DNA of 20,060 nucleotides from a virus. A program made the translations under genes and the position numbers. Shown here piece by piece: positions 4,126 through 20,060 of this stretch; the stretch's first letter is position 1, and every line of letters begins with the position of its first letter. The notes below the pieces were generated by a model. The model was not told the DNA's origin and made no database searches. It saw nothing but the letters and a program-made list of their open reading frames with translations. The DNA is taken from positions 1-20,060 of IMG/VR virus record IMGVR_UViG_3300023199_000252; one strand, written 5' to 3'.

Positions 4126-4126
4126 G

Positions 4127-4765: not shown

Positions 4766-4769
4766 CGGC

Positions 4770-5231: not shown

Positions 5232-5267
5232 GGAAGTCGCTCCGAAGATTGAGGCAAGACGAGGAGC

Positions 5268-5289: not shown

Positions 5290-5298
5290 TAGCCGTCA

Positions 5299-6204: not shown

Positions 6205-6305
6205 GGGGAGTGCCCTCGAAGGCTGGCCGGCACCCCGCCCCCGTCAACCAGGGGTCAGGCGCCGCGCGCGATTGATCCTGATCGCCAGAGGGCTGCCCGC
6301 ACCAA

Positions 6306-6418
6306 CCGTCGGACCCCGGCTTGCCGGTTCCGGCCCGGCCCTGCCGCCGGTCTCTCCCGGCGTCCGATGGACGGGAGCGCCGGCGCGGGGGTGAACCAGA
6401 AAGACCCCGCACCGGCGC
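6306..6418 (-). promoter_or_regulatory. Two strong hairpins in the scaffold-capsid gap
   Basis: The gap 6205-6478 has no gene. GCGCCGGCGCGGGG (6377-6390) pairs with CCCCGCACCGGCGC (6405-6418): 14 pairs with one G-T type pair and a 14-base loop. Further along the transcript, CCGTCGGAC (6306-6314) and GTCCGATGG (6362-6370) close a second, larger structure with one wobble pair. Neither is followed by a T-run. A short CCGG/GGCC simple repeat lies at about 6449-6467, next to the scaffold stop. The most likely role is transcript stabilisation or partial attenuation ahead of the capsid gene; no convincing promoter was found here. Confidence 0.55.
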
Positions 6419-6478
6419 CCGCCGCTGCCCACCACGAGAGCCAGGATAGCCGGCCGGCCGGCCGGCGGTGTTAGAGCG

Positions 6479-7408: not shown

Positions 7409-7727
7409 GCGTGTCACCTTCGCTGGCGGGGAGGAGTACTTCGAGCGGGGCGAGGCGGAGCCGGCCGAGCACGAACAGCAGCGCCTGGCGCCGGCCCTCG
7501 GCCACCGCCATGGCCAGCCCGTCGGCCCGGGCCCCGGCATCCATGCGGGCGGTCGTCACCGTGCCGTAGCAGAAGCGGGAGAGGTCGCGGATCAGCGCCA
7601 GGCCCTCGGGGTGCAGCTGCCCGCCGCCCTCGACCCGGAAGCGCGCCGCCCAGGCCCGCTCGAGCTCCAGGCGCGCCCGGCTCTTCGCCGGCTTGATGAC
7701 GTCATTCTGATGCCATTCCGGCGTCAC
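7296..7727 (-). CDS. Bbp19-like phage protein
   Basis: This 143-aa protein starts at a GTG that overlaps the portal stop (GTGA). The core, residues about 20-90, matches the Bbp19-like family pattern: a basic helix, HPEGLALIRDLSRFCYG, then MAVAEGRRQALLFVLGRL. The family occurs beside portal genes in BPP-1-like phages; its function is not established. The last 35 residues are very unusual: the frame runs 113 bp into the scaffold gene and reads its 21-bp repeats as three NRSASRR units, giving a highly basic tail. The family core ends near residue 100, so the tail may be an overprinted extension. The core assignment is firm; the tail is read directly from the sequence. Confidence 0.75.
   Translation of the reverse strand: MTPEWHQNDVIKPAKSRARLELERAWAARFRVEGGGQLHPEGLALIRDLSRFCYGTVTTARMDAGARADGLAMAVAEGRRQALLFVLGRLRLAPLEVLLPASEGDTHDDRDRNPRRRSRNRSASRRNRSASRRNRSASRRNAG
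7308..7370. repeat. Three perfect tandem 21-bp repeats, coding in two frames
   Basis: Three identical 21-bp units occupy 7308-7328, 7329-7349 and 7350-7370. On the minus strand they encode ATDQPAG repeats in the scaffold N-terminus and, in another frame, NRSASRR repeats in the C-terminus of the Bbp19-like protein. Because 21 is a multiple of three, gain or loss of a unit leaves both frames intact. Confidence 0.95.
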
Positions 7728-9328: not shown

Positions 9329-9330
9329 CG

Positions 9331-9522
9331 TCAGCCGCCCAGAAGCTTCTTGGTGGCCGTCGCCGGGCCGGTGCCGCCCGAGCCGCCGGTCAAGAGCGAG
9401 GCGGCGAAGCCCTGCCGCCGCCGCTCGCGGTCTCTGAGCGTCTGGTCGATGCCCTTCTCGTCGGGCTCGGCCTTCTCGACCGGGTCGGGCAGCTTGGGCG
9501 TCTTGGGCGAGAGAAAGCTCAT
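9331..9522 (-). CDS. Small conserved protein between terminase and portal
   Basis: This 63-aa protein begins MSFLSPKTPKLPDP, has a charged middle (DQTLRDRERRRQGFAASLLT) and ends GPATATKKLLGG. Small proteins with a Pro/Lys-rich start, an RRRxGxxxxLLTGG-type motif and a K-LLG end are common between large terminase and portal genes in podoviruses of this kind. Their function is unknown; an accessory role at the portal or in packaging is a guess from position. The start overlaps the terminase stop by ATGA, which supports it as a real gene. Confidence 0.75.
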   Translation of the reverse strand: MSFLSPKTPKLPDPVEKAEPDEKGIDQTLRDRERRRQGFAASLLTGGSGGTGPATATKKLLGG

Positions 9523-10994
9523 GCGAAGGCTCCGCGTGTTGATCCTGGCCTCGTGGCCCTGGCGATGGCCGGCCGACGCAGCCGCGGCGAAAGGTCTTTC
9601 CTGGCGACCCGCTCGGCGAAGGTCAGCGCCAGGGCGTCGCCCTCGTCCGGGCTCTCGAGGCCGCGCCGCTCCATGGCATCCTTGCTCTCGAGGATCAGCC
9701 GCCCGTCCACGGCGTGATAGGTGTACTCCGGGGCGGTCAGGTCCTGCGCAAGATCGTCATCGTCCGGCACCGCCGCCTGCTCGATCCAGTCGGCCATCTC
9801 GGCCCACATCTCGGCCCGGCGGTTGACGTACTTGGCCTTGTCCCGGCAGCTGCCGCCGAAATCGACCTCGGTCACCCGAAAGCGCCTGGAGCGCAGGATG
9901 TCCGCCACCGGCCCGCCGACCCCGCCGCCGTCGATCATCACCGCATCGGGCTTGAAGCGCTCGATCGCCTCGGCGATGCGGTCGGCGAGCTCGGTCGCCG
10001 GCAGGCCGCGGTAGCGCTGCCAGGGGATGCCGCGCGCGTCGCGGCCCTGGCGGAAGGCCAGGACACTCTTGTTCGAGCCGAAGCGGGCGACATCGACACC
10101 CAGGATCAAGGGCGCCCCGTCGTCGTGCTCGACCAGCCGCTCCCGGGCCGCCTGGACGACGTCGCCGCCGATCAGCTGCCGGGCCGAGGCGCGGGGGAAC
10201 TGCCCCCTGACCCGCACCCGCACATAGTCGCTGTCCTCGCCGTAGTCCTCGACCCAGCGCTGCGTCTCGGCCTTGTCGGCGAAGCGGCAGGTGCGGCTGT
10301 CGATCTGCCGCTTCTGCCAGCGGTGCCGCTCGCGGCCGAGGAAGCACGCATGGAAGCGGCCGGTGTTGCGGGTCGGGTTGCCCAGCACCACCCACATCGC
10401 CCCAGGCGTGGTCATCGCCCCGCTGGCGACTTCCCAGATGATGTCCGGGATGGCCGAGGCCTCGTCGAAGAGCACGATGACGTCACGCGCATGCAGCCCG
10501 GCGAAGGCCTCCGACCGGCTCTCCGACCAGGGCACCGCGTCGATCCCCCAGGTCTTGGGTGCCATGCGGCACTCGTAGCGCGTCGCCGTCCAGCGGAACC
10601 AGGCGCGCAAGGGCGGGATCAGCCGGTTGTGCCAGACCTGCAGCTCGCGCCAGGTCTTGCCGGTCAGCTGGCTCTTGGTGTTCGCCGTCACCACGCCGGC
10701 GAGGTTCGGCCGGGTCGCCATCAGCCAGATCAGGAGCATCGCCGAGAACGCACCCTTGCCGATGCCGTGCCCGGCGGCCACCGCCTGGCGCACCGGCACG
10801 CCCTCGGCCGCCATCGCGCCGATCTCGGCGAAGGTCTCGGCCTGCCAGACGTCCGGCCCGTCGATTTCAACCAGCTCGCCGGCGCCCCAGGTGAACGCAT
10901 AGCGAACAAAGCCCAGGGGATCGGCGAAGAAGCGCGCCAGGTCCTCCGCCAGGAGAAGATCGGGGGCCAGCTGCGGCTCCGGCGCCTCGCTCAT
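9519..10994 (-). CDS. terL: Terminase large subunit
   Basis: This 491-aa protein is the packaging motor and nuclease. The ATPase domain shows a P-loop, GHGIGKGA (residues 75-82), the segment VVTANTKSQLTGKTWRELQV (101-120), a Walker B strand ending VLFDEAS (D177, E178) and a coupling motif GNPTRNTGRF (205-214). The RNase H-like nuclease domain shows acidic residues in LILGVDVARFG (D301), VMIDGGGVGG (D355) and EGDALALTFA (D453). The residue after the P-loop Lys is Gly, not the usual Ser or Thr. Length and order are normal. The start overlaps the small terminase stop (ATGA). Confidence 0.95.
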   Translation of the reverse strand: MSEAPEPQLAPDLLLAEDLARFFADPLGFVRYAFTWGAGELVEIDGPDVWQAETFAEIGAMAAEGVPVRQAVAAGHGIGKGAFSAMLLIWLMATRPNLAGVVTANTKSQLTGKTWRELQVWHNRLIPPLRAWFRWTATRYECRMAPKTWGIDAVPWSESRSEAFAGLHARDVIVLFDEASAIPDIIWEVASGAMTTPGAMWVVLGNPTRNTGRFHACFLGRERHRWQKRQIDSRTCRFADKAETQRWVEDYGEDSDYVRVRVRGQFPRASARQLIGGDVVQAARERLVEHDDGAPLILGVDVARFGSNKSVLAFRQGRDARGIPWQRYRGLPATELADRIAEAIERFKPDAVMIDGGGVGGPVADILRSRRFRVTEVDFGGSCRDKAKYVNRRAEMWAEMADWIEQAAVPDDDDLAQDLTAPEYTYHAVDGRLILESKDAMERRGLESPDEGDALALTFAERVARKDLSPRLRRPAIARATRPGSTRGAFA

Positions 10995-11527
10995 CGGCCC
11001 TTGGCCCGCTGCCTGGCCGCCTCGAGCACGGCGATGATCGAGGCCGCATCGGCCGCCCGGTCCTCCTCGCGATCACGGAAGAGCCCGTGATGCCGGCCGA
11101 GCTGCACCAGCGCCGGCAGCTTGGCGTGCGCCTTGGCACTCACCTCGCCGTCCGCGAAGCTCACCGAGGCCAGCGCCGCCGCCGTGTCGTCGTCGAGCTC
11201 GAGCAGCGCCTGCGTCCCGGCACCCAGCCCCGCCAGCTTCCTGGGATCGAAGAAGGCGATGCGCTCGAGCTCCCGCAGCACCCGCTCCCGCGCCTCGAGC
11301 GCCGCCTCGGTCGCCGGCCGCTGCGCCGCGGCGATCGCCGCCTTGACCTTAGCGTCCTTAAGCAGACGGGACGCCGTGACGTGCGCCGAGCCGGCGGCGA
11401 ATCCGGCCTCGATCGCCGCCGCCGTGCCGTTCGAGGACACGAGATAGGCCCGCACGAAGGCCGCCCGCCTGGGCGGCAGCAAGGCCAGCGCCGCCTCGAG
11501 GTCGTCAGTGCCCGTGTCGTCGGCCAT
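10991..11527 (-). CDS. terS: Terminase small subunit
   Basis: The protein is 178 aa from the ATG at 11527, which follows a GGGGTGAC site; a longer frame reaches 11590 but lacks this site and would overlap the candidate promoter. The N-terminal region has a helix-turn-helix pattern, FVRAYLVSSNGTAAAIEAGF then HVTASRLLKDAKVKAAI (residues about 24-65), as in terminase small subunits of the Terminase_2 type, which recognise phage DNA and start packaging. A helical middle (EARERVLRELERIAFFDP) and a C-terminal tail follow. It is the first gene of the virion operon. Confidence 0.88.
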   Translation of the reverse strand: MADDTGTDDLEAALALLPPRRAAFVRAYLVSSNGTAAAIEAGFAAGSAHVTASRLLKDAKVKAAIAAAQRPATEAALEARERVLRELERIAFFDPRKLAGLGAGTQALLELDDDTAAALASVSFADGEVSAKAHAKLPALVQLGRHHGLFRDREEDRAADAASIIAVLEAARQRAKGR

Positions 11528-11559
11528 GTCACCCCAAAAAGCAGCGAAAGATGCGGCCG

Positions 11560-11590
11560 ATGCTAAGCTGTCGCCGCGAGCGCCGCGCAA
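11560..11590 (-). promoter_or_regulatory. Candidate promoter of the packaging/virion operon
   Basis: On the minus strand TTGCGC (11590-11585) lies 18-19 bases before TTAGCAT (11566-11560). The -10-like part has T-A-x-x-A-T and the -35-like part begins TTG. The predicted transcript would start near 11,552, about 25 bases before the small terminase ATG. The same bases also read CTAAGCT on the plus strand, ahead of the 11,620 gene, so the site might serve both directions. Support is moderate: matches are partial. Confidence 0.4.
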
Positions 11591-11619
11591 AACAGCCGAT
11601 CGCCTGCAAAGGAGTTGCC

Positions 11620-11853
11620 ATGCCGACCATCCCCAGACCCGGCGAGACCGTCAGCCTCGAGGAACGCGTCTACTCGGGGCCGGCCAGCCGGCCCTTTGAC
11701 GAAGGCGTGCGTGTCATCACCGCCCGGGTGCTGAAGATCCGCACCGGCCCGGGCCGGCGGCACCCGACCATGTCGCTCGAGGTCCAGTCCTGCTCCGGCG
11801 CGATGCCGCTGCCGGCCGGCCGGCTGATCATCCGCCCCGTCGGCGACGGCTAG
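11620..11853 (+). CDS. Small hypothetical protein, divergent to the terminase operon
   Basis: This 77-aa protein starts at an ATG with an excellent AAAGGAG site six bases upstream; the upstream in-frame ATG at 11551 lies in the promoter region and is not favoured. The protein is probably all-beta: PRPGETVSLEERVYSGPA, VITARVLKIRTG, MSLEVQSCSG. No family was recognised. It is the only plus-strand gene between the two leftward operons, and its stop shares three bases with the convergent lipoprotein stop (CTAG). The strong ribosome-binding site and isolated position suggest independent expression, but the function is unknown. Confidence 0.65.
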   Translation: MPTIPRPGETVSLEERVYSGPASRPFDEGVRVITARVLKIRTGPGRRHPTMSLEVQSCSGAMPLPAGRLIIRPVGDG

Positions 11854-12320
11854 GACGCATTGCCCGGCGCCATCGCCCCGGCCGCGATCGTGTGCACCTG
11901 GGCGAGCAGGATCCCCGCCTCGCGCCGCGCCCGGTCGATCAGGAGATGCTCGCCCTCGACCGAGCGCAGCGCCACCCGCCGCAGCTCGTCGCCGATGATC
12001 CGCACCACCTCTTCCGCCGCCACCCGCTCCGGCGCCTCGAGCCGATCGAGATCGAGCTGGCGCAGGGCGAAGGCTTCGAGTGCCGCCACGGTCGCGAGCT
12101 CGCCCCGGACCAAGGCCTCGAGCGCCGCCGTCGAGACGGCGAGCGCGGCGGCCGCCCGGTCGGGCGAGGCGGTGATCACCTTGGCGGTGACGTAGAGCAC
12201 GCCCGCCTGCGCCAGGCGCTGCGGCGCCTCGGAGCGCGGCCCGCCTTCACCGGCGCAGCCGGCCAGCATGGCGACGATGAACGCCCCGGCCGCCAGCGCC
12301 CGCCGCAGCCCCGGCCGCAT
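11850..12320 (-). CDS. Phage-encoded lipoprotein
   Basis: This 156-aa protein has a classic lipoprotein signal: basic MRPGLRRA, hydrophobic AGAFIVAMLA, and the lipobox LAGC with Cys22. The mature part is almost all helical and charged (EALVRGELATVAALEAFALR, VAAEEVVRIIGDELRRVALR). Similar short lipoproteins occur in many phages, sometimes near lysis genes, but no holin or endolysin is seen here. A spanin-like or envelope-modifying role is possible but unproven. The ATG shares one base with the upstream stop (TGATG), which fixes this start; the frame upstream of it is a shadow of the 107-aa gene. Confidence 0.72.
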   Translation of the reverse strand: MRPGLRRALAAGAFIVAMLAGCAGEGGPRSEAPQRLAQAGVLYVTAKVITASPDRAAAALAVSTAALEALVRGELATVAALEAFALRQLDLDRLEAPERVAAEEVVRIIGDELRRVALRSVEGEHLLIDRARREAGILLAQVHTIAAGAMAPGNAS

Positions 12321-12643
12321 CAGTGCAAATCCCGTTCGAGGTCGAGGATGCCCAGCATCTCGCTCACCACGTCGTGCCGCCCGGCGATCACCGGCCGCTC
12401 GTCGTCGAGATGGACCACCCGGGTCCGCCCTTGATGGCCGTGGATCGCCACGACCTGCAAGAGGTTGTCGTAGACCACCACCGAGCCGTGGCCGACCTCG
12501 TCGGTCGCCCGCCATTGCGTGACGCAGCGCCCGGAGGGCAGCTCGACCCCCGCCGCCACGATGCCGACCCCCGACACGCCCGTCGCGTCCTCGACGCGCT
12601 CGAGCACGAACCGGCGGAACGCCGGCAACCCCGCATAACCCAT
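12320..12643 (-). CDS. Small conserved protein with SGVGIVAAGVE motif
   Basis: This 107-aa protein contains DATGVSGVGIVAAGVELPSG, a TQWRATDEVGHGSVVVYDNL strand pair and AIHGHQGRTRVVHLDDE. The run SGxGxVAxGVE...W......S..VYD......IHGHxGxTRVxxLD is a recurring pattern in short phage and bacterial proteins of unknown function. The fold is probably a small beta barrel. The ATG at 12643 follows GAGG five bases upstream; longer frames cross the dyad-rich gap and were rejected. It is cotranslated with the lipoprotein through a one-base overlap. Confidence 0.68.
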   Translation of the reverse strand: MGYAGLPAFRRFVLERVEDATGVSGVGIVAAGVELPSGRCVTQWRATDEVGHGSVVVYDNLLQVVAIHGHQGRTRVVHLDDERPVIAGRHDVVSEMLGILDLERDLH

Positions 12644-12660
12644 CGTCACCTCGCTCAAGA

Positions 12661-12680
12661 CGCGAGCCAGCCGACTCGCG
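12661..12680. repeat. Dyad before the 107-aa gene
   Basis: CGCGAG (12661-12666) and CTCGCG (12675-12680) form an inverted repeat with an 8-base centre, about 20 bases upstream of the ATG at 12643. It could be an operator or an RNA hairpin in the leader. Confidence 0.45.
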
Positions 12681-12735
12681 CGCCCAACCATGGAACTCAC
12701 TAACCGGCTGAAAACACACACGACAAGCGTCATGC

Positions 12736-12758
12736 ACGGTGTCTCGCTCAGACACCGT
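12736..12758. promoter_or_regulatory. Perfect 9-bp dyad, operator or hairpin
   Basis: ACGGTGTCT (12736-12744) and AGACACCGT (12750-12758) are perfect inverted arms around a 5-base centre. The dyad starts four bases past the stop of the 98-aa gene, in a 118-bp gap clearly richer in A and T than the rest of the window. There is no T-run after it on the transcribed strand, so a protein-binding operator or a stabilising hairpin is as likely as a terminator. The neighbouring OmpR-type protein is an obvious candidate binder, by inference only. Confidence 0.5.
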
Positions 12759-12761
12759 TCA

Positions 12762-13058
12762 TCAACCAGAGGTTTCATCGTCCAGCGGCACCAGCTCCAG
12801 CGCCAGGTGCCCGCGCCGCCCGCCGATCGTCTCGCCCACCATCGCCGCCGTGATCGACCGCGCCGGCACCGCCGCCACCTTGCGGCAGCGCAGCTCGACA
12901 TCGCCCACCACCAGCCGCTGCCGCCCCTTCATCCCGGCCAGGATCTCGTCCTTGAGCTCGGCCTCCTGCCGCGCCGCCTCGCGCGCCGCCGCCTTGGCCG
13001 CCCGGTAGCGGTCGACCAGGCCCTGCAGGAGATTGCCGCGATAGACGGGGACGCTCAT
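12762..13058 (-). CDS. Small coiled-coil/beta hypothetical protein
   Basis: This 98-aa protein has a helical first half (LVDRYRAAKAAAREAARQEA, then ELKDEILAGM) with coiled-coil character and a beta-rich second half (QRLVVGDVELRCRKVAA). The helix-then-strand layout, in which a charged helix is followed by a G-D-x-x-L-x-C-R-K turn, resembles small phage accessory proteins found with recombination or replication genes. No family was identified with confidence. The start (13058) overlaps the stop of the winged-helix gene by ATGA, so the two are probably cotranslated. The longer upstream frame is Arg/Ala-rich and is a shadow of that gene. Confidence 0.66.
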   Translation of the reverse strand: MSVPVYRGNLLQGLVDRYRAAKAAAREAARQEAELKDEILAGMKGRQRLVVGDVELRCRKVAAVPARSITAAMVGETIGGRRGHLALELVPLDDETSG

Positions 13059-13468
13059 GCGCTGATCCTCGAGCTGGATGGATGATCGGGCGGCGGGTCG
13101 TCGTCGTTGCCGGGCACCACCAGGCGGTAGCCCACGCCGACGACGTTGAGCACCAGCGCGCCGGTGCCGGCGAGCTTGGTGCGCAGCCCGGCGATCACCA
13201 CCCGGAGCGCCGAGGCGGCGCTGTCCGGCGGCTCCAGCCAGGCGCCCCACAAGGCCGTCATCAGCTGGTCCACCGTGCCGAGCTCGCGGGTCAGGAGCAC
13301 CGCCAGCGCCGCCTGCTCCTGCGGCAGCAGCCGCCGCGGCCCCGCCGGCGCCAGCACCGTCCCCGCCGCCACGTCCAAAGGCAGCCCGGCCACGGCCGGG
13401 CGCCAGGCCGGGGGCGGCGGCAAGAGCGAGAGCAGCGGCCGGCCTTCGGGGCCGCGCGGCGGGCTCAT
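13055..13468 (-). CDS. OmpR/PhoB-type winged-helix DNA-binding protein
   Basis: This 137-aa protein carries a winged helix at residues about 28-118: LPLDVAAGTVLAPAG strands, LLPQEQAALAVLLTRELG, VDQLMTALWGAWLEPPD, SALRVVIAGLRTKLAG (recognition helix region) and VLNVVGVGYRLVVPG. The VGYRLV ending is the hallmark wing of OmpR-type output domains. There is no receiver domain; a short Pro-rich arm precedes the winged helix. It is likely a transcription regulator of the phage, first in its operon. The ATG at 13468 was preferred over a TTG at 13573, because the latter overlaps the -35 of a candidate promoter; the ribosome-binding site (GGTGGGG) is weak. Confidence 0.75.
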   Translation of the reverse strand: MSPPRGPEGRPLLSLLPPPPAWRPAVAGLPLDVAAGTVLAPAGPRRLLPQEQAALAVLLTRELGTVDQLMTALWGAWLEPPDSAASALRVVIAGLRTKLAGTGALVLNVVGVGYRLVVPGNDDDPPPDHPSSSRISA

Positions 13469-13544
13469 CCGCCCCACCGTGGGCGGCGCGGTATCGAGGC
13501 AATGGTCATCGGCGGCGATCCAGGCGGCAGGGGTCCAGCCAGCA

Positions 13545-13573
13545 CCTATACCAGACGACGCGATTAGGAGCAA
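13545..13573 (-). promoter_or_regulatory. Candidate promoter of the winged-helix operon
   Basis: On the minus strand TTGCTC (13573-13568) is separated by 17 bases from TATAGG (13550-13545). The spacing is ideal, the -10 matches four of six consensus bases and the -35 three. A transcript would begin near 13,538 and have a leader of about 70 bases before the ATG at 13468. Confidence 0.4.
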
Positions 13574-13766
13574 ATTCCTATGCCCGGGCCATTGTCGACG
13601 CTGCCCGATAGCCCGCCTTCGAGGCCCTGGCCAGCCCGCCCGCTCCGGCCCCTCTTCATCGGGTCTTCATCGGGTCTCGATCGAGGCACCCGGCACCGCC
13701 CGGCCGGAGCGCCGGCGCGCTCCCCTCCGCTCGTCTTCCAAGCGGCCGCGCCAGCGGCCTCCCTGC

Positions 13767-13827
13767 CGGCCGAAGGCCGTGATGCGTGTTGCCGGCGATC
13801 AGCCGGCGCCTTTTCGGCCGAAGGCCG
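13767..13827. repeat. Paired CGGCCGAAGGCCG hairpins flanking a third palindrome
   Basis: Two identical 13-base palindromic units lie at 13767-13779 and 13815-13827, on either side of GCCGGC-GATCA-GCCGGC (13791-13807). The group looks like a small extragenic palindromic element. No gene covers it. Confidence 0.7.
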
Positions 13828-13872
13828 CCAGGGCGAGAGACTCTGATTCTGTTAAGAGGGATTCGAAAGGGC

Positions 13873-13903
13873 GGTCCTCTCCTGGTTATCCAGGACAGGG
13901 ACC
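13873..13903. repeat. Imperfect 13-14-bp inverted repeat
   Basis: GGTCCTCTCCTGG and CCAGGACAGGGACC are near-perfect inverted arms around TTAT. The region is relatively AT-rich for this genome, which fits an operator or replication origin element but does not prove either. Confidence 0.6.
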
Positions 13904-14104
13904 AGGATCGTTTCCCGCCGATTGATCTCAAAGCCTTTTTCGGCTTGCTCGTCATCGTCTGGGGGGGGCGAGGCTGACGCGCCAGGCGGCCGCGTGGCCA
14001 CTGCGGCCGGCGACGCTGCCCCGCCGCCGCGCTTACGTCCCGATCGATGACGAATTCAACCGCAGGAGCGAGGCATGTTGCCGCATTGTTCCATGCTCGC
14101 GCGC

Positions 14105-14142
14105 AAAAAAGGCGCCGCCGGGCCGAGCTCGCCCGTGGCGCC
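14105..14142 (-). terminator. Intrinsic terminator of the 452-aa gene
   Basis: Read on the minus strand, GGCGCC-A-CGGGC pairs with GCCCG-GC-GGCGCC across a 7-base loop, then a run of six T follows. It lies 40 bases past the stop at 14182. This is the only textbook Rho-independent terminator in the window and cleanly separates the 452-aa unit from the regulatory region to its left. Confidence 0.8.
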
Positions 14143-14181
14143 AGTCGCGCAATCCTATGCTGCTCCGACTAAATGCCCGCG

Positions 14182-15540
14182 CTAGCCGTCGGGCGGGTCG
14201 ACACCGGGGCGCCGCGCCAGCTCGCGCTGCACCAGCTCCTCCTGCCGGAGCACCTGCTGCCGCTCCGCGAAAGCCGCCTCGATCTCCGCCAGCTGCGCCG
14301 CCTTCTCCGCCGGCAGCTGGTGCTCTTCTTCCGGCACCGGCGCCGCGGCACGCTTCTCCCGACGCCCCGGATAGGGCATCGCCGGCAGCGCCGGCGCTGC
14401 GACGCGGCGCTCGACCGCCGCCTCGATCGCCCGCTCCACCTCGACCGGCAGGAGCGCCGCATCGGCCGCCTCGCCCTCCGCCTCGGCCGCCAGCCGCCGT
14501 GCCACCCAGTCCTGGCGCGCGACCTCGGCCCGCGCCGACCGCCGCCGCACCGCCGCCGCATCGAGCAGCAGCTCGGGCACCGCCTCGGGCAGGCGGAAGC
14601 CGAGCAGGAGCGCGCGCATCGAGCGGAACGACACCCAGCCCCAGACCTGCTGCAGCGTCATCTCCCGCTGCACCCGCCTGTCGGCCCAGAGCACACGCGC
14701 CCGCTCCGGCGGCTGCTTGAGGTAATGCCCCGTCTGCTTCAACCGCTTCCTGGCACAGCCCATCGTCCGGCCGAGCCTGCCGCTCCGCTTCTCGGCCTCG
14801 CTGCCGTCCGGGTCTAACGGGTCGTCGCCGACATTGACGCCGGCCAGCTGCAGCCGCTGCCGCTCGGTGTGGATCGCGCCGTGCACCGCCATCCAGTCGC
14901 GGCAGAGACCGTCCAGCAGCGGCTCCGTCTCCGCCCGGCCGGGATCGACGTCGACGAACCGCCGGACCAGGCTCTGCCGCTTCGAGGTCAGCCCGGCCAA
15001 GAGCGCCGTCCGCCGGCAGCGCTCGGCCCGGTTGCGCAGGAAGAACCTGGCCCGCTGCGCATCCGGCCAGCGCACGCGCCGCTCGCCGGCCGCGGCGACG
15101 ATGGTCCAGCCGAGCCCGGCGGCCGCCTGCTTGACCTGCGCCCGCACGCGGTCGCGGCGCACGCCGGACGCCTCCGCCAGGTAGTCCAGATCCAGCTCCG
15201 GCTCGGCCGCGTCACCATTCATGATCAGATCCAGCACCGCGCGGCCGACCCGCCGGGCCGGCGGCGCAAGCCCGCCCAGCCGTTCGCGCAACGCCGCCGC
15301 CAGCCGCGGGTAAGCGCCCTTGCCGTCGAGGTCGCTCAAGCGGTAGCGCCGCGGCTGCAGCCCGGCTGACGGCGACGCTTCGGCGGCGGGCCCCTCGTCG
15401 CGTGCCGCCGCCGGCCTGAGCTTGCCGACCACCTGCCCCAGCACCCCCGCCATTGGCTGAGCCTGCCGGTCCAGCCGCGGCGGATTCCCGTCGCGCCGGC
15501 GCGTCGCGCCTACCGGCTCGCTGGCATAGGGATGGCTCAT
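14182..15540 (-). CDS. Unrecognised 452-aa protein with a helix-turn-helix-like segment and helical tail
   Basis: The first 70 residues are low-complexity and probably disordered. From about residue 85 the chain looks folded: PPARRVGRAVLDLIMNG, then LDLDYLAEASGVRRDRVRAQ (a helix-turn-helix-like stretch near residues 116-135), then VKQAAAGLGWTIVAAAGERR with a wing-like end. A basic helical middle (RTALLAGLTSKRQSLVRRF) and a W-rich LQQVWGWVSFRSMRALLLG segment follow. The last 60 residues form a charged coiled coil (EEEHQLPAEKAAQLAEIEAA). A replication-initiation or DNA-binding role is plausible from this layout and from its own terminator and operon, but no family was recognised. The start overlaps the stop of the upstream gene (ATGA). 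Confidence 0.7.
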   Translation of the reverse strand: MSHPYASEPVGATRRRDGNPPRLDRQAQPMAGVLGQVVGKLRPAAARDEGPAAEASPSAGLQPRRYRLSDLDGKGAYPRLAAALRERLGGLAPPARRVGRAVLDLIMNGDAAEPELDLDYLAEASGVRRDRVRAQVKQAAAGLGWTIVAAAGERRVRWPDAQRARFFLRNRAERCRRTALLAGLTSKRQSLVRRFVDVDPGRAETEPLLDGLCRDWMAVHGAIHTERQRLQLAGVNVGDDPLDPDGSEAEKRSGRLGRTMGCARKRLKQTGHYLKQPPERARVLWADRRVQREMTLQQVWGWVSFRSMRALLLGFRLPEAVPELLLDAAAVRRRSARAEVARQDWVARRLAAEAEGEAADAALLPVEVERAIEAAVERRVAAPALPAMPYPGRREKRAAAPVPEEEHQLPAEKAAQLAEIEAAFAERQQVLRQEELVQRELARRPGVDPPDG

Positions 15541-15761
15541 CCGGCCACCGCCGCGGCGAAAGCTTCGGCGCAGCTCGGCTCATCCCGCGCCAGCAGGGCG
15601 CAGATGGAGGACGGGCGGACACCGGCCACCACCGGATCGAAGCGATCCCGCAGCTCGGTCGCGTAGTCTTCGCCCTCGCCGAGCTCGACCAGCCAGGCCT
15701 CCCGCGTCATCGACGCGGGGTCCTCGGGATCGTCCCAGCGGCGCCGCCAGCCCCCCCTCAC
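15537..15761 (-). CDS. Small hypothetical protein upstream of the 452-aa gene
   Basis: This 74-aa acidic protein starts at a GTG preceded by GGGAGG at good spacing; an internal ATG at 15710 is an alternative. Its centre is AWLVELGEGEDYATELRDRF followed by DPVVAGVRPSSICALLARDE. No family was recognised. The ATGA overlap with the 452-aa gene makes translational coupling likely and suggests a partner or regulator of that protein, which is inference. Confidence 0.55.
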   Translation of the reverse strand: MRGGWRRRWDDPEDPASMTREAWLVELGEGEDYATELRDRFDPVVAGVRPSSICALLARDEPSCAEAFAAAVAG

Positions 15762-15913
15762 CGCCCGCCTCCCGCGCCCGGCCGCCCCAGCGCGACGGCG
15801 GCACGCACCGCGCGCCGGGACGGCCTTTGCACGCCCCGCCGCCGCGATGCCTTAAGCTCACCCCCCTTCGGCACCACGGGCTCTTGATGGGCAGGATCGA
15901 CGATGGCGGGACG
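15762..15913. promoter_or_regulatory. Divergent regulatory gap
   Basis: This gap separates the leftward 15,761 unit from the rightward 15,914 gene. It contains GATGCCTTAAGCT (about 15,848-15,860), similar to GATGCTAAGCT near 11,559, and on the plus strand a TTGCAC lies 17-19 bases before CCTTAAGC. The matches are loose, so a promoter is only suggested. Confidence 0.3.
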
Positions 15914-16177
15914 ATGACGACCCAGGGAACGACCAAGGCCGGCGCCGCCGGCGAGCGGCTGGCCGACCAGCTCGGCCGGCTCGAGCGGCACCTCGCCGGT
16001 CTCGCCGCGAAGACCGCCGGCAAGGCCGACCTCGTCGCCCTCGAGGAGCGCCTCGACGCCAGGCTCGCCGCCATGGAGAGCCGCCAGGAGCAGCGCCTCC
16101 TGCTCCTCGAGGCCCGCCTCGCCGCCGTGCTCAGGGAGCTGATGGCGGCCATCGCCGCCCCCTTCCCCCCGGCCTGA
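15914..16177 (+). CDS. Small coiled-coil protein
   Basis: From the ATG at 15914 (GGCGGG upstream) this is an 87-aa, almost entirely helical protein: ERLADQLGRLERHLAGLAAK, ADLVALEERLDARLAAMESR, QEQRLLLLEARLAAVLRELM. The KADLVALEERLDARLAAMESR stretch has the heptad pattern common in small phage coiled-coil proteins, and the C-terminal AVLRELMAAIAAPFPP is mildly hydrophobic. ATGs at 15887 and 15827 are alternatives without a ribosome-binding site. It is the first plus-strand gene of the right arm. Function is unknown; a role at the membrane beside the other small right-arm proteins is possible. Confidence 0.6.
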   Translation: MTTQGTTKAGAAGERLADQLGRLERHLAGLAAKTAGKADLVALEERLDARLAAMESRQEQRLLLLEARLAAVLRELMAAIAAPFPPA

Positions 16178-16384
16178 AAACCTCCCGAAAACCTCCCGGT
16201 ACCAGCGGCAGCCCAGCGCGGCGCAGCGCGCCCGCTCGTCGATGCAGCCCCTGGCGCAAGGCGAGGCCGGGGCGGCGCGAGGAGAAGGCGCGCCGCCCCG
16301 GCCAAGGCCGGCGGAGGGGAGGCTCGTCCCCGCCGGCCGCGGCTCACCGGGGTCGGTCCCCCCGGCTCGCCGGTCACGGTCGGG
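16178..16384. other. Hairpin-rich intergenic stretch
   Basis: No gene is supported. A tandem 11-bp repeat GAAAACCTCCC (16176-16186, 16187-16197) begins inside the stop codon of the coiled-coil gene. GGCCGGGGCGGCGCG (16265-16279) and CGCGCCGCCCCGGCC (16289-16303) form a perfect 15-bp stem; its right arm shares GCGCCGCCCCGGCC with the hairpin of the repeat modules downstream. A further strong hairpin joins GGCCGGC and GCCGGCC arms between 16306 and 16340, and CCGGGG/CCCCGG arms lie just beyond. Confidence 0.7.
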
Positions 16385-16468
16385 CACGGGGCGGCGCACC
16401 ATGATGCGCCGCCCCGGCCTTTCCCCTAGGAGAGGAGTGTCACCAACAACTCCCGGGGAAGCTCGATG
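16385..16468 (+). repeat. Cassette leader repeat, copy A (84 bp)
   Basis: This 84-bp module ends in the start codon of the 16,466 gene. It contains a palindrome (GGGGCGGCGCA at 16388-16398, loop CCATGA, TGCGCCGCCCC at 16405-16415) and a leader with TTCCCC (16421-16426) able to pair with GGGGAA (16455-16460), which includes the ribosome-binding site, plus an inner stem GGAGT/ACTCC. It is identical to copies B and C. Confidence 0.95.
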
Positions 16469-16966
16469 GAGACCCTCTATGCCGTCCTGCGCTTCCTGGC
16501 GCAGGACCCGACCGGATGGATCATCGCCGTGGCCACCACGCTCGCCGCCGTGCTCGCCATCCTCGACAGGCGCACGCAGCCGGATATCACCCTCGCCCGC
16601 TGGTCCGACGGCACGACGCCGCTCCGGCCGGGCGTCGACCGCCTGCTCCTGAGCGTCGGCAATCCGAGCCGGAACCGCATGCTCACCATTGCCGCATTGC
16701 GGGTCGTGGCACCGCGCGGCGCCACCCTCGCCGGCGTGTTCCCGGTGACCGACGGCCTTCAAATCGACGTCCCCCGGGATCTCTCGGCCGGCGCCGGACC
16801 GCTCTGGGTCGTCCGCCCCGGCGGCGCCGCGCTCCTCGCCGTCGACGTCGCCTCCCTGAGCTCGAACGCCGACATCTCGATCGAGCTCCGCACGTGCCAG
16901 AGCACGCGGATCAGACGGTCCAGACGCCACAGGATCAGCGCCGCGATCCAGGCCACCAGCATCTGA
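16466..16966 (+). CDS. Cassette protein 1: membrane-anchored beta-domain protein
   Basis: This 166-aa protein has a short N-terminal helix, one membrane segment (WIIAVATTLAAVLAILDRR, residues about 18-36) and a beta-rich domain with RLLLSVGNPSRNRMLTIAAL followed by RVVAPRGATLAGVF. The NP-x-R-x-x-x-x-I-x-x-L-R-V-x-x-P-R-G core recurs in the products at 17,733 and 18,366, suggesting a shared immunoglobulin-like fold exposed on one side of the membrane. The ribosome-binding site is GGGGAAG in the repeat leader. The last 25 residues are basic and use codons (AGA, AGG) rare elsewhere here, and they lie opposite a good minus-strand frame, so the C-terminus may be secondarily acquired. Function is unknown. 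Confidence 0.68.
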   Translation: METLYAVLRFLAQDPTGWIIAVATTLAAVLAILDRRTQPDITLARWSDGTTPLRPGVDRLLLSVGNPSRNRMLTIAALRVVAPRGATLAGVFPVTDGLQIDVPRDLSAGAGPLWVVRPGGAALLAVDVASLSSNADISIELRTCQSTRIRRSRRHRISAAIQATSI

Positions 16967-17016
16967 GCCCAGAACAGCACGACCGCCCACAGCGGCGGCA
17001 GCCATTCCGCCGTCAC
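16759..17016 (-). CDS. Possible small membrane protein antisense to cassette 1
   Basis: A GTG at 17016 preceded by GGAGG opens an 85-aa frame. Its first 42 residues look like a real membrane protein: WLPPLWAVVLFWAQMLVAWI, then AALILWRLDRLIRVLWHVR, with GC-ending codons throughout. The remainder runs antisense through the beta domain of cassette protein 1 and looks like shadow sequence. It may be a genuine convergent gene whose 3' end is overprinted, or the 5' remnant of a gene truncated when the cassette arrived. The 19,861 gene shows the same arrangement. Confidence is limited by the 208-bp overlap with the plus-strand gene. Confidence 0.45.
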   Translation of the reverse strand: MTAEWLPPLWAVVLFWAQMLVAWIAALILWRLDRLIRVLWHVRSSIEMSAFELREATSTARSAAPPGRTTQSGPAPAERSRGTSI

Positions 17017-17033
17017 GCCCCCGCCTCCGCACG
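17013..17033. repeat. Intercassette motif (reference copy of five)
   Basis: A 21-base sequence beginning TCACGCCCCC and ending GCCTCCGCACG. An exact copy is at 19858-19878, one with a single extra C at 18263-18284, and looser copies at 18842 (TCACGCCCCGGGCTCCG) and 19425 (GCCCCCGGGCTCCGCACGA). Read on the minus strand it supplies GGAGG and a GTG, used by the frames starting at 17016 and 19861. Confidence 0.85.
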
Positions 17034-17036
17034 CCA

Positions 17037-17120
17037 CACGGGGCGGCGCACCATGATGCGCCGCCCCGGCCTTTCCCCTAGGAGAGGAGTGTCACCAACA
17101 ACTCCCGGGGAAGCTCGATG
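17037..17120 (+). repeat. Cassette leader repeat, copy B (84 bp)
   Basis: Identical to copies A and C over all 84 bases, up to the start codon at 17118, where identity stops. Upstream it shares a further stretch, including the 21-base intercassette motif and GCCACACGGGG, with copy D. Confidence 0.95.
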
Positions 17121-17639
17121 CTCGATCTGCTGCGGCCGGACTGGATCAACGCCATGAGCACAACCGCCCTCGCCGTCGTCGCCGTCCTCGGGATGCTCGG
17201 CGGCCTTCTCGCCTGGCACGCCGGCCGCCGCCGGCAACGCCGGCCGCCCGACATCGACCTGCGCCACGAGCCCGACGCCACCACGCCCCACGAGGCCGGG
17301 CTCGAAGCCGTCGCCGTGATCTGCCGCAATCGCGCCTCGCTGCCGATCACCCTGCTGCGGGTCGAGGCGGGCTCTCCCGCGGGCGCCGACATCGTCGACT
17401 GGCGCCACCTGCCCACCGGCGACGGCTTGCCGCCGCTCATGCTGCCGAACGCCGCCACGCCGCGCCCGCCGGAGCCGCCGCTCTGCATCCGGCCCGGCGA
17501 CACCGCCACGCTCGTCGCCGCCCTGGCCCCGATCACCCCGTCGACGGCCGAGATCTCCCTTTGCGTCACTGTCCGCTTCGAGCGCGGCATGCCCCGCACT
17601 CGCGTCTACCAGCCGCGGGTCACCATCGCCCGGCGCTGA
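17118..17639 (+). CDS. Cassette protein 2: membrane-anchored beta-domain protein
   Basis: This 173-aa protein has the same layout as cassette protein 1 but a different sequence: short N-terminus, membrane segment (MSTTALAVVAVLGMLGGLLA, residues about 13-32), a basic stop-transfer patch (GRRRQRR), then a beta-rich domain with AVAVICRNRASLPITLLRVE and ending in EISLCVTVRFERGMPRTRVY. The R-N-x-x-x-x-x-I-x-x-L-R-V core aligns in position with the other cassette proteins. The leader and ribosome-binding site are identical to cassettes 1 and 3, yet the coding sequence shares nothing obvious with them from the ATG on. An internal ATG at 17154 lacks a ribosome-binding site. Function is unknown. Confidence 0.7.
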   Translation: MLDLLRPDWINAMSTTALAVVAVLGMLGGLLAWHAGRRRQRRPPDIDLRHEPDATTPHEAGLEAVAVICRNRASLPITLLRVEAGSPAGADIVDWRHLPTGDGLPPLMLPNAATPRPPEPPLCIRPGDTATLVAALAPITPSTAEISLCVTVRFERGMPRTRVYQPRVTIARR

Positions 17640-17651
17640 GAGCGGGCACCG

Positions 17652-17735
17652 CACGGGGCGGCGCACCATGATGCGCCGCCCCGGCCTTTCCCCTAGGAGA
17701 GGAGTGTCACCAACAACTCCCGGGGAAGCTCGATG
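17652..17735 (+). repeat. Cassette leader repeat, copy C (84 bp)
   Basis: Identical to copies A and B. Together with copy A, identity continues about 60 bases into the coding sequence with only two mismatches, then ends abruptly near codon 21. Confidence 0.95.
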
Positions 17736-18260
17736 GAGACCCTCCATGCCGTCCTGCGCTTCCTGGCGCAGGACCCGACCGGATGGATCATGGCCGCCAC
17801 ACCGTTCCTCGTCGTCACCGCCAGGGCCGTCATCCGCCGGCTCACCGGCCCCGCCGCCGTGCTCGGCTACGAGCCCGAGGCCCGGAGCGTGCCGGAGCTC
17901 CACGACTTCTTCGCGCTCGCCGTGGACAACCCCGGCCGCCGGCCGCTGCGGGTGACCGCCATCCGCCTGCGCCGGCCGCGCCGCGCCGCCATCGCCGGGC
18001 TCTACGACTGGCTCGGCCGGCAGCCGGGCAACGGCATGCCCTACGACGAGGCCGAGCGCGACGCCGACGGCCTCGCCCGCCTGGTCGAGCCGGGCGCCAC
18101 GCGGCGCTTCGGCGTCGACGTCGCCGGCCTCCCCGCCGGCGAGCGCGTCCTGGTCGAGCTCGTCGTCGAGCTGCGCCCGACCGACAGCCCTTGGCCGTGG
18201 TCCAGGCACCGCCGGCGCGCCCGCCTCTGGCTCACGCTGCCCGCGCGGGATGCCGCCTGA
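17733..18260 (+). CDS. Cassette protein 3: membrane-anchored beta-domain protein
   Basis: This 175-aa protein begins METLHAVLRFLAQDPTGWI, differing from cassette protein 1 at one residue in the first 19, then diverges completely. A hydrophobic segment (GWIMAATPFLVVTARAVI) precedes the beta-rich domain: FFALAVDNPGRRPLRVTAIR, then LRRPRRAAIAGLYDWLG, and a C-terminal VLVELVVELRPTD strand. The NPGRRPLRVTAIRLRRPRR core matches the position of NPSRNRMLTIAALRVVAPR in cassette protein 1. An outer-face or cytoplasmic orientation cannot be decided. A role in superinfection exclusion or another host interaction is a guess based on membrane anchoring and variable domains. Confidence 0.7.
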   Translation: METLHAVLRFLAQDPTGWIMAATPFLVVTARAVIRRLTGPAAVLGYEPEARSVPELHDFFALAVDNPGRRPLRVTAIRLRRPRRAAIAGLYDWLGRQPGNGMPYDEAERDADGLARLVEPGATRRFGVDVAGLPAGERVLVELVVELRPTDSPWPWSRHRRRARLWLTLPARDAA

Positions 18261-18287
18261 CCTCACGCCCCCCGCCTCCGCACGCCA

Positions 18288-18368
18288 CACGGGGCGGCGC
18301 ACCATGATGCGCCGCCCCGCCGGTTCGCCTAAGACCAGGTCACCACAACCATCCGAGGCGAACCGATG
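18288..18368 (+). repeat. Cassette leader repeat, copy D (diverged)
   Basis: The palindrome half (18288-18318) is identical to copies A-C; the leader half has diverged but keeps the plan CCTA-GA...GTCACCA-CAAC...ATG. CGGTTCGCCT (18321-18330) pairs perfectly with AGGCGAACCG (18356-18365), ten bases ending at the ATG and enclosing the ribosome-binding site. Confidence 0.9.
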
Positions 18369-18836
18369 CTGGAATTCCTTTCCTGGGCGGGCCAGGCGCT
18401 GCTGCGCGGCCTCGCCGAGAGCGCGCTTGGAGCCGTCATGCCGGGCCTTCTCGACTGGGCGTTCAACCGCAACGAGCTGCCCGTGCTCCTCGAGCGCGAC
18501 TTCAGCCGCGCGCCGACCGAGCCCGGCGCGCCGCCCGTGGTCCATCTCGGCATCACCTTCCGCAACACCGATCGTGCCCGCTGGCAGATCGCCGGCGTCC
18601 GGCTCGTGGCACCACGCCGCGGCCGCATCGCCCGCGACGAGCGGCCGGCCGAGGCGCTCGCCGGCCGGGACCTGCCGCTGGCCCTCTACCTCGATCCCGG
18701 TGCTGTCGCCTGGCACCGCTTCGTCGTCACCCTGCCGCCCGGCTGGCGCCGCGGCCGGGTCACCGTGCGCCTCTACCTGCGCCGCCTCACCAGCGACAGG
18801 CGGCACCGCGCCTGGGCGACCACGAAGCTCGACTGA
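18366..18836 (+). CDS. Cassette protein 4: hydrophobic N-terminus plus beta-domain protein
   Basis: This 156-aa protein starts MLEFLSWAGQALLRGLAESA and has a hydrophobic but less clearly membrane-spanning first 33 residues (ALGAVMPGLLDWAF). The beta-rich domain reads VVHLGITFRNTDRARWQIAG, then VRLVAPRRGRIARDE, close in plan to cassette protein 1 (VRLVAPRRG against LRVVAPRGA), and ends RVTVRLYLRRLTSDRRHRAW. The ribosome-binding site GAGG lies within a 10-bp stem next to the ATG. The gene belongs with the three before it on leader, length and domain plan. Function is unknown. Confidence 0.7.
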   Translation: MLEFLSWAGQALLRGLAESALGAVMPGLLDWAFNRNELPVLLERDFSRAPTEPGAPPVVHLGITFRNTDRARWQIAGVRLVAPRRGRIARDERPAEALAGRDLPLALYLDPGAVAWHRFVVTLPPGWRRGRVTVRLYLRRLTSDRRHRAWATTKLD

Positions 18837-18867
18837 GCCGCTCACGCCCCGGGCTCCGTGTCCCGCC

Positions 18868-18896
18868 TTGTGACGCCGCACCGATCCGGACATAAT
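18868..18896 (+). promoter_or_regulatory. Sigma-70-like promoter of the DUF1640-like pair
   Basis: TTGTGA (18868-18873) lies exactly 17 bases before CATAAT (18891-18896), four and five matches to the consensus hexamers. The -10 sits in the palindrome GACATAATGTC. Transcription would begin near 18,903, just before GTGTCACCACCATC, a sequence resembling the loop of the cassette leaders, and the GTG follows GGAG with eight bases between. Confidence 0.6.
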
Positions 18897-18932
18897 GTCG
18901 GGGTACGTGTCACCACCATCGGAGCCGCCGCC

Positions 18933-19181
18933 GTGGCCACGACCATCGACACCCTCCGCTTGGCCGACCACCTCGCCGAGAAGGGCAAGTTCTCGGCCGA
19001 GCAGGCGCGCGCCATCGCCCAGGGCTTCGCCCAGGAGGCCCGCGAGGACTTCGCCTCCAAGCGCGGCCTCGACGTCCTGTACTGGAAGCTGATCGCCGGG
19101 CTCGCCGTCATGCTGCTCGCGCATCTCGCCGCTGTCTGGGCGATCGTCGCCGCGGTCGCCGCCCGCGGCGGTGCCGGCTGA
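18933..19181 (+). CDS. DUF1640-like small membrane protein 1
   Basis: Starting at the GTG with GGAG eight bases upstream, this is an 82-aa protein. It begins TTIDTLRLADHLAEKGKFSA, then EQARAIAQGFAQEAREDFAS, and ends in one membrane helix (LIAGLAVMLLAHLAAVWAIV). The F/I-D-T-L-x-x-A-x-x-L opening, the EQA helix and the C-terminal membrane anchor match DUF1640/CCDC90-like coiled-coil proteins, often found as short versions in phages and bacteria. It is followed six bases later by a paralogue and probably cotranscribed with it. Phage forms have no settled role; a helper of membrane insertion or lysis timing is only a possibility. Confidence 0.68.
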   Translation: MATTIDTLRLADHLAEKGKFSAEQARAIAQGFAQEAREDFASKRGLDVLYWKLIAGLAVMLLAHLAAVWAIVAAVAARGGAG

Positions 19182-19187
19182 GCCGCC

Positions 19188-19424
19188 GTGGCGAGCCAGC
19201 CCTTTGACACGCTCGACTTCGCCGCCAAGCTCCAGGCCGGCGGCTTCACCGAGCCCCAGGCGAAAGCGGCGAGCGAGGCGCTCCGCGCGGTCACCAGCGA
19301 GCTGGTCACGCGCCGCGACCTCGCCGTCGAGCTGCAGCTCCTCGAGCAGCGCCTGGTGATCAAGGTCGGCGCCATGCTGGCCGCGGCCGTCGTCATCGTC
19401 GGCGCCCTCGTCGCCCTGTTCTGA
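19188..19424 (+). CDS. DUF1640-like small membrane protein 2
   Basis: This 78-aa protein starts at a GTG and reads PFDTLDFAAKLQAGGFTEPQ, AKAASEALRAVTSELVTRRD, then LLEQRLVIKVGAMLAAAVVI and a hydrophobic end. It is a clear short DUF1640-type protein: FDTL-x-F-A-x-x-L-x-x-x-GF, an LVTRRDL turn, an LEQRL-x-I-K-x-G-A-M-L junction and a C-terminal membrane helix. It is a paralogue of the preceding gene and sits six bases after its stop, with no strong ribosome-binding site of its own, so coupling to the upstream gene is likely. The pair may form mixed coiled-coil oligomers in the inner membrane. Confidence 0.75.
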   Translation: MASQPFDTLDFAAKLQAGGFTEPQAKAASEALRAVTSELVTRRDLAVELQLLEQRLVIKVGAMLAAAVVIVGALVALF

Positions 19425-19445
19425 GCCCCCGGGCTCCGCACGACG

Positions 19446-19476
19446 CGGGCGGGCACGGTGACACCGCGCCCGCCCG
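19446..19476. repeat. Near-perfect 31-base palindrome
   Basis: CGGGCGGGC-A-CGGTG, a single central base, then CACCG-C-GCCCGCCCG: palindromic except for one A-C pair and the centre. It sits between the second DUF1640-like gene and the 19,516 gene and is followed by CCCCTACGATGGCAGTG, matching in plan the CCCCTAGGAGAGGAGTG that follows the cassette palindromes. Likely a hairpin that separates transcripts. Confidence 0.75.
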
Positions 19477-19515
19477 TCCCCTACGATGGCAGTGCGACCA
19501 ACCATCGGAGGAACC

Positions 19516-19725
19516 ATGTCCAATCCGCTCGTCCACAAGGAGCTGCTCGCGCTCGCCAGCGGCACCCGTGAGGAGGTGGCGTTCCGCCTGCTCATGATCC
19601 TGGCCCAGATCGAAGGCCGGGACCTGCGCTCGAAGCTGCCGCCCGACCAGGCCGCGGAGACCCGCCGCTGGCTTCTGGAGAGCTATGCGGCGTGCCTGGC
19701 GCCATCGGCGGGAACCCCTGGGTGA
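19516..19725 (+). CDS. Small hypothetical protein
   Basis: This 69-aa protein starts at an ATG with a strong GGAGGAACC site. It is helical: NPLVHKELLALASGTREEVA, then FRLLMILAQIEGRDLRSKLP, and AAETRRWLLESYAACLAP. No family was recognised. The leader contains CGATGG/CCATCG arms just before GGAGG with GTGCGACCAA in the loop, again resembling the cassette leaders. Its last 134 bases overlap a minus-strand frame starting at 19861. The frame upstream of 19516 is also open but lacks a ribosome-binding site. Confidence 0.62.
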   Translation: MSNPLVHKELLALASGTREEVAFRLLMILAQIEGRDLRSKLPPDQAAETRRWLLESYAACLAPSAGTPG

Positions 19726-19861
19726 ACGTGTAGAGCTCGCGCGCGGCGGCGGTCACCATGGCCGCCGCCGCCACCTCGTCCGCCGCCGTGCGCGCCCGAT
19801 CGCCGACCAGCTCGGCCGCCAAGCACAGCAGCGCCACCCGCAGCTCGTCCTCGTGCGTCAC
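19592..19861 (-). CDS. Small hypothetical protein, convergent overlap with the 19,516 gene
   Basis: A GTG at 19861 preceded by GGAGG opens an 89-aa frame. The first 49 residues are well-formed coding sequence free of any opposite gene: THEDELRVALLCLAAELVGD, then RARTAADEVAAAAMVTAAAR and ELYTFTQG. The rest is antisense to the 19,516 gene and becomes Ser/Pro/Gly-rich, so the true product may be best represented by its N-terminal half. No family was recognised. It lies downstream of the minus-strand gene entering from the right, after a strong hairpin. Confidence 0.55.
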   Translation of the reverse strand: MTHEDELRVALLCLAAELVGDRARTAADEVAAAAMVTAAARELYTFTQGFPPMAPGTPHSSPEASGGSPRPGRAAASSAGPGLRSGPGS

Positions 19862-19887
19862 GCCCCCGCCTCCGCACGACGCGGGCG

Positions 19888-19911
19888 GGCGGCGGGCTCC
19901 GGCCCGCCGCC
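19888..19911. terminator. Perfect 10-bp hairpin at the end of the right-edge gene
   Basis: GGCGGCGGGC (19888-19897) and GCCCGCCGCC (19902-19911) pair perfectly with a 4-base loop. On the minus strand it begins within the stop codon of the right-edge gene and precedes the GGAGG-GTG start at 19861. On the plus strand GCCTATGGCTTTTCCCC follows, giving a short T-run. Confidence 0.6.
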
Positions 19912-20060
19912 TATGGCTTTTCCCCGCCGCCCGCCGGCGACCACGGCCAGGCCGCGATCCTCTTCTCCACACCCTCGAGCCTGTCGGCCACGTCGCCTTC
20001 GTGCCGCGCGTTCTGCCGCAGCAGGCGCTCTTCGAGCTCTGTCATCCGCCCGTTGAGCTC
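19911..20060 (-). CDS. Coiled-coil protein, C-terminal part (enters from right edge)
   Basis: The minus strand is open from the window edge to a TAG at 19911-19913 (49 codons). The visible end is a heptad-patterned helix, ELNGRMTELEERLLRQNARH followed by EGDVADRLEGVEKRIAAWPW, and a short Gly-rich tail, SPAGGGEKP. It resembles the C-termini of small phage coiled-coil proteins, but a C-terminal fragment of this kind cannot be assigned to a family. An internal ATG at 20045 is possible, but the frame is open beyond it to the edge. Confidence 0.6.
   Translation of the reverse strand, partial: ELNGRMTELEERLLRQNARHEGDVADRLEGVEKRIAAWPWSPAGGGEKP

Follow-up and report, generated by a model that had tools for sequence, protein, structure and literature searches.

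How do identical leader sequences come to stand in front of genes that differ from one another? This question is raised by positions 16385 to 18836 of virus record IMGVR_UViG_3300023199_000252, a metagenomic sequence of 20,060 bases that we analysed whole and refer to as the window. Here, four modules that share a perfect hairpin precede four plus-strand genes, A–D, predicted to encode membrane-anchored proteins. We propose that the locus is an accessory (moron) region of a podovirus-type temperate phage of a high-GC host, that A–D form one old paralogous family (D's membership being less certain), and that recent recombination at the leader block has placed one leader before different members of this family. 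We give this explanation as a whole a probability of about 0.65. The modules and genes are:

16385–16468, plus strand: leader module A, with a perfect hairpin at 16387–16416, a weak −10-like CCTAGGAG and a ribosome-binding region up to the ATG; same as B and C.
16466–16966, plus strand: gene A, 166 amino acids (aa), with a predicted N-terminal transmembrane (TM) helix (residues about 15–36) and immunoglobulin-like (Ig-like) beta-sandwich; codon signal and AlphaFold2 (AF2) model.
17037–17120, plus strand: leader module B, same as A and C; the match ends at the ATG.
17118–17639, plus strand: gene B, 173 aa, plan as A and homologous to A (z 10.9); codon signal.
17652–17735, plus strand: leader module C, same as A and B; the match with A goes on to 17796.
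17733–18260, plus strand: gene C, 175 aa, plan as A; first 62 base pairs (bp) nearly identical to A.
18288–18368, plus strand: leader module D, with the same hairpin and a diverged second half that makes a separate 10-bp stem around the ribosome-binding region.
18366–18836, plus strand: gene D, 156 aa, with a predicted TM segment and Ig-like domain (gamma-adaptin ear / ApaG-like fold).

The three modules that start at 16385, 17037 and 17652 match one another at 84/84 bp, and the ATGs of their genes lie at 16466, 17118 and 17733. The module of D (18288) begins with 32 bp that match them exactly and hold the perfect 12-6-12 hairpin; it then diverges, so that 56 of 84 ungapped positions match. 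In B, identity stops at the ATG. Between A and C, 144 of 146 positions are identical (16384–16529 and 17651–17796, with mismatches at 16478 and 16525 only), and this identity ends abruptly about 62 bp inside the genes, as expected of two copies of one event. The original prediction, made from the letters of the window alone, had described three identical modules, a fourth that is half-identical and these end points, and all of this holds. It missed 19 further identical bases upstream of the module in B and D (CCCCCGCCTCCGCACGCCA). This upstream boundary is common to B and D only, and the breakpoints differ among the A–C pair, B and D.

All four genes were read in their own annotated frames, which are backed by a codon signature trained on the confident late genes of the phage. 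Outside the shared N-terminus, A aligns with B at z 10.9 and with C at z 10.3; the pairs B–C, A–D and C–D reach a z of about 4, and the pairwise alignment of B with D is not above chance. The predicted models of A (mean predicted local distance difference test score, pLDDT, 67) and D (72) each show a helix at the N-terminus plus a beta-sandwich of eight strands, arranged in the same order. Both resemble adaptin-ear and ApaG-type Ig-like folds, with modest matches. As the same four sequences were used for both, the two models are not independent. The original prediction had claimed a shared plan with little sequence in common, and had proposed a comparison of structures. The models of A and D do share one plan, and the sequence likeness was understated, as A–B and A–C are clear homologs. 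The charges flanking the helix suggest that it lies N-out, with the beta domain tethered to the inner membrane on the cytoplasmic side.

In local alignments, the A–D domains share 31–46% aa identity, and identity at third codon positions is 0.53–0.62, which is close to the chance level that we estimate for this base composition and thus near saturation. In their non-coding leaders, in contrast, A, B and C agree at 100% of positions, and A and C also do so in the first 62 coding bases but for two changes. Leader identity of 84/84 next to near-saturated third positions means that the leaders are much younger than the genes and were recently copied or homogenised. Uniform tandem duplication does not produce such a contrast in age, whereas recent copying, exchange or gene conversion does. 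That selection should hold every base of the leader in place is unlikely, given the divergence in the second half of module D. A comparison of substitutions in leaders and genes had been proposed as a check of the original prediction, and its outcome agrees with that prediction.

These patterns suggest a mechanism. The block in front of each gene (perfect GC hairpin, −10-like element, and leader with ribosome-binding region) would offer homology for the duplication, exchange and homogenisation of cassettes. Homologous recombination or gene conversion in or near the block would recently have put one leader before A, B and C, with the breakpoint at the ATG in B and some 62 bp into the gene in A/C. 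Cassettes would also be deleted via short GC-rich homology, as in a relative described below, and A–D may act as lysogenic accessory functions.

One informative close relative, G001, was available as three loci (L009, L123 and L128), with a terL gene 97–99% identical to that of the window. As read from its sequence and open reading frames (ORFs), it has a helix-turn-helix repressor and an integrase with an adjoining tRNA-like 3' end; because of this repressor and integrase, we regard the phage group as temperate. In L009, genes A and B are gone: window position 16343, after the upstream gene Z, is joined to 17977–17987 inside C via CGCCGGCCGCG, an 11-bp microhomology. Only the 3' half of C remains (from about 17976; 98.7% identical). 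As half a gene cannot be the ancestor of a full one, the loss occurred in the lineage of the relative. We considered a deletion mediated by the leaders and rejected it, as the junction is the 11-bp microhomology. The deletion thus bypassed the leaders, which makes short GC-rich homology a second route of change. The C remnant is followed by CACGCCCCCGCCTCCGCACG, and then by a different hairpin and a repressor region instead of D. Searches for A, B, D, F and G in the three loci gave no match. The promoter, leader and first 7 codons of gene E are present in G001, but inverted and elsewhere, ahead of a different coiled-coil membrane protein that aligns with E over only about 30 N-terminal residues. 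The original prediction had named a fixed order of the four genes in related genomes as evidence that would count against it; in this relative, loss of A, B and half of C was seen, and the idea was not refuted.

We searched for the array elsewhere by exact pattern or close protein match, through which diverged copies can escape. The module or hairpin as an exact pattern was found in no other record among the viral contigs. Proteins B and C matched only G001 there, for C, and neither A and C in 50,697 phage records nor D in plasmids gave a match. A profile of A–D yielded only hits with E-values of 0.003–0.008 in 289 genomes of one class, one of them with internal stops, and these were not accepted. 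The neighbouring gene at 14182–15540, used as search bait, found nothing. As no second phage with the module was found, exchange of A–D between phages was not seen directly. Of the original claim that coding cassettes are exchanged behind a fixed leader, the evolutionary part is thus largely upheld by the young leaders, the differing breakpoints, the single plan of A and D, the losses in the relative and the E leader before another gene; actual swapping of A–D between phages is putative. The search for the module in related phages, also proposed with that claim, returned no second A–D module.

The same identity pattern would arise if an old paralogous array had lately had its leaders homogenised by gene conversion within one genome, with no exchange of coding cassettes between phages, and the lack of a second phage with the module in the collections searched fits this too. 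However, the relative has lost cassettes and carries a relocated E leader before a different gene, so the coding content behind fixed leaders does change within this phage group. We therefore consider conversion within one genome unlikely as the whole account, although it is the best of the rivals. Tandem duplication followed by fast coding divergence, with leaders held identical by purifying selection, would suit four paralogs of one plan in tandem on one strand. Yet the first 62 bp of the A and C genes are identical, third positions included, before near-saturation sets in, and the diverged second half of module D has kept its role, which makes strict constraint on each base unlikely. The contrast in age disfavours this alternative, and we think it improbable.

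A short-read assembler could also have strung alleles of one locus together at the 84–146 bp repeats, which are near common k-mer limits, in this metagenomic record. We rate this as very improbable: such repeats normally break assemblies, a contig of another record, independent of this one, shows the C remnant with matching orientation and on the matching side of Z, and the 3' ends and boundaries of A-B-C-D differ. Finally, a site-specific cassette system (integron attC-like or Xer/dif-like) at the 12-6-12 palindrome, which occurs exactly once per unit and has a size like that of a recombinase core site, is rejected because the breakpoints differ, with identity running well past the palindrome to varying end points. 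Moreover, no attC-type features were seen in the palindrome, a perfect and symmetric one, and it was not used for the deletion in the relative, whose integrases lie far from the array, by the tRNA-like end.

Several results weigh against recombination at the leader block as the explanation we favour. The relative lost its cassettes through an 11-bp microhomology and not through the leaders, and no second phage with the A–D module turned up in the searched collections. A sigma-70 scan of the A–D modules found no clear promoter, only the −10-like CCTA-GA without a −35 element. The models of A and D are of modest confidence and were built on the same four-sequence alignment, and no library points to any function for A–D. 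The assembly is metagenomic with repeats of 84–146 bp, at which a misjoin is possible in principle; the order of the array comes from this one contig, with partial backing from where the C remnant lies in a second, independent contig.

With respect to function, A–D had no significant match in Pfam, PHROGs, NCBIfam or PADLOC, and none to a family of defence, anti-defence or exclusion proteins. The role facing host or phage that the original prediction had suggested is therefore putative. Superinfection exclusion or other membrane-facing interference is the most likely role for A–D, but this is speculation to which we give rather low odds. A further, somewhat less likely idea is that the locus is a diversity array: several members of one membrane-anchored Ig-like family would be kept by a temperate phage, each behind the same kind of hairpin leader, the whole beta-domain would be exchanged between phages at the leader or at the shared N-terminal codons, and lysogens would come to differ in membrane-facing specificity.

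Downstream of D lie three further small genes, two of them with clear promoters:

18868–18896, plus strand: sigma-70 promoter of E, TTGTGA-17-CATAAT, from the promoter scan; conserved in the relative before a different gene.
18933–19181, plus strand: gene E, 82 aa, with a hydrophobic C-terminal segment; codon signal.
19188–19424, plus strand: gene F, 78 aa, CCDC90-like/phrog_17872, with coiled coil and C-terminal TM segment, 6 bp after E.
19458–19487, plus strand: sigma-70 promoter of G, GTGACA-18-TACGAT, from the promoter scan; inside a hairpin of the A–D type.
19516–19725, plus strand: gene G, 69 aa; codon signal.

Clear sigma-70 promoters thus number two (E and G), against 0.0 expected. Strong hairpins occur at each boundary, with T tracts too short for a terminator call; only 19887–19912 passes. 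The A–D hairpin could terminate upstream transcripts or insulate the units, although its T tract is short. Because promoters are clear for E and G alone and the T tract is short, we regard the A–D block as a putative expression module. Of the "fixed expression module" in the original prediction, the fixed leader stands, and the expression part is putative. Upstream of gene Z, TTTGCAC-17-CCTTAAGCTC is kept in both phages with a differing spacer (window 15850–15890 and L009 near 5750–5790) and is likely a promoter missed by the consensus scan. The match of F to the CCDC90-like family (PF07798) is weak (E-value 2e-5, below the curated cut-off). The likeness to these small coiled-coil membrane proteins concerns the neighbours E and F only, and not A–D.

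Inverted repeats are concentrated in the region of the small genes. In 15541–20060 there are seven perfect ones whose arms reach 10 bp or more, many more than chance would give (mean 0.15 in shuffles of that stretch), against two in 1–15540. Two features outside the modules are:

16265–16303, plus strand: perfect 15-bp inverted repeat (loop 9) between Z and the array, from the inverted-repeat scan.
17014–17036, plus strand: boundary element CACGCCCCCGCCTCCGCACG; its minus-strand reading gives a ribosome-binding site and the GTG start of a small ORF.

The latter recurs after genes C (partly) and G, besides its place after the C remnant in the relative. Minus-strand coding signals at 16880–17019 and 19700–19867, just after A and G, each open with this ribosome-binding-site/GTG element, the first with a hydrophobic segment overlapping the end of A; they may be either small antisense genes or remnants. 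At 19433–19454 and 19869–19890, and near 6218 of L123, lies a second boundary type, CTCCGCACGACGCGGGCGGGC. In the relative it follows the C remnant, at the place of the module D hairpin in the window. A leader hairpin that hides the ribosome-binding site is strong in D (z −5.4) and weak in one leader of the relative (z −2.1); a general riboswitch-like masking was dropped, being not significant in A–C or G. A sub-threshold match of the minus strand of three modules to Rfam whalefall-1 (20–22 bits against 37) is due to the palindrome.

The rest of the window is consistent with a podovirus-type phage. Its late region lies on the minus strand and encodes the terminase subunits, the head-tail adaptor (portal), the major head protein and two tail proteins, and the small plus-strand genes follow from 15.9 kb on: Z (15914), A (16466), B (17118), C (17733), D (18366), E (18933), F (19188) and G (19516). 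The G+C content of A–D (71.5–77%) shows no contrast with that of the core genes (66–72%) or the window (73%). Searches of genome contigs with terL found no close prophage (best 48–51%), and the high-GC host is a guess only. Three exact 21-bp tandem units at 7305–7373, in the gene at 6479–7540, encode a repeated GATDQPA. Between the two phages, window 13874–15981 (gene 14182–15540) is swapped in L009 for unrelated or very distant sequence, with left flanks 92–97% identical and a best weak match at L009:6031–7059 (E-value 0.01). In L128, two neighbouring integrase-like ORFs (1079–2068 and 2385–3392) surround the tRNA-like 3' end and are followed by a tail-fibre-like ORF of 2142 aa.

The gene family A–D is new; the principle of gene swapping behind a fixed block is known from other phages. 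Closest in working principle, as outlined in PMC4503421, are the promoter/stem-loop (PeSL) cassettes of T4-like phages (Arbiol 2010 and Comeau 2014, cited therein), in which a composite of hairpin and promoter-like sequence lies at gene boundaries of a hyper-variable region and recombination there shuffles genes. In the window the stem-loop is likewise repeated at boundaries, with a clear promoter only at G and E. Unlike the systems in that outline, this is a temperate phage of podovirus type, as its head-tail adaptor, tail and terminase genes indicate, with a high-GC host, and not a T4-like myovirus; A–D have no clear promoter, belong to one paralogous membrane-protein family, and show identity that can enter the genes. 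The SAS/ESAS elements of cluster K mycobacteriophages are start-associated sequences with inverted repeats, with a 13-bp GGGATAGGAGCCC element by the start codon (PMC3203893). Here too, a repeated inverted-repeat block lies just upstream of several accessory, non-structural starts, different gene families stand behind the same block, and the repeats are largely restricted to the accessory region (seven, with two in the late region). However, the window has a perfect hairpin with 12-bp arms, 84-bp identity and far fewer copies, and on reading the sequence against the published consensus the best-placed match to GGGATAGGAGCCC is CCCCTAGGAGAGG, with 7 mismatches and about 34 nt from the ATG. Like the morons of temperate phages, as defined in PMC4378225, E and G are single genes with their own promoter, and accessory genes come and go between close relatives (in G001, A and B are gone and a remnant of C is left). 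Unlike in morons, paralogs here form an array behind identical leaders, the base composition does not stand out, and the terminators are putative. The locus thus resembles all three and is a full member of none, as at least one defining feature of each is absent or undecided.

Even for well-studied groups, the entry and exit of accessory genes in phage genomes have been called mysterious (PMC4378225). At this locus, several stages can be seen together: identical leaders before different family members, breakpoints of three kinds, a gene of which a close relative keeps only a half-deleted remnant, and another leader that precedes a different gene. The locus illustrates how genes may be exchanged by phages behind a fixed, putative "on switch". 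If A–D are indeed exclusion factors, they would represent a small repertoire of membrane-tethered Ig-like domains that serve as interchangeable parts.

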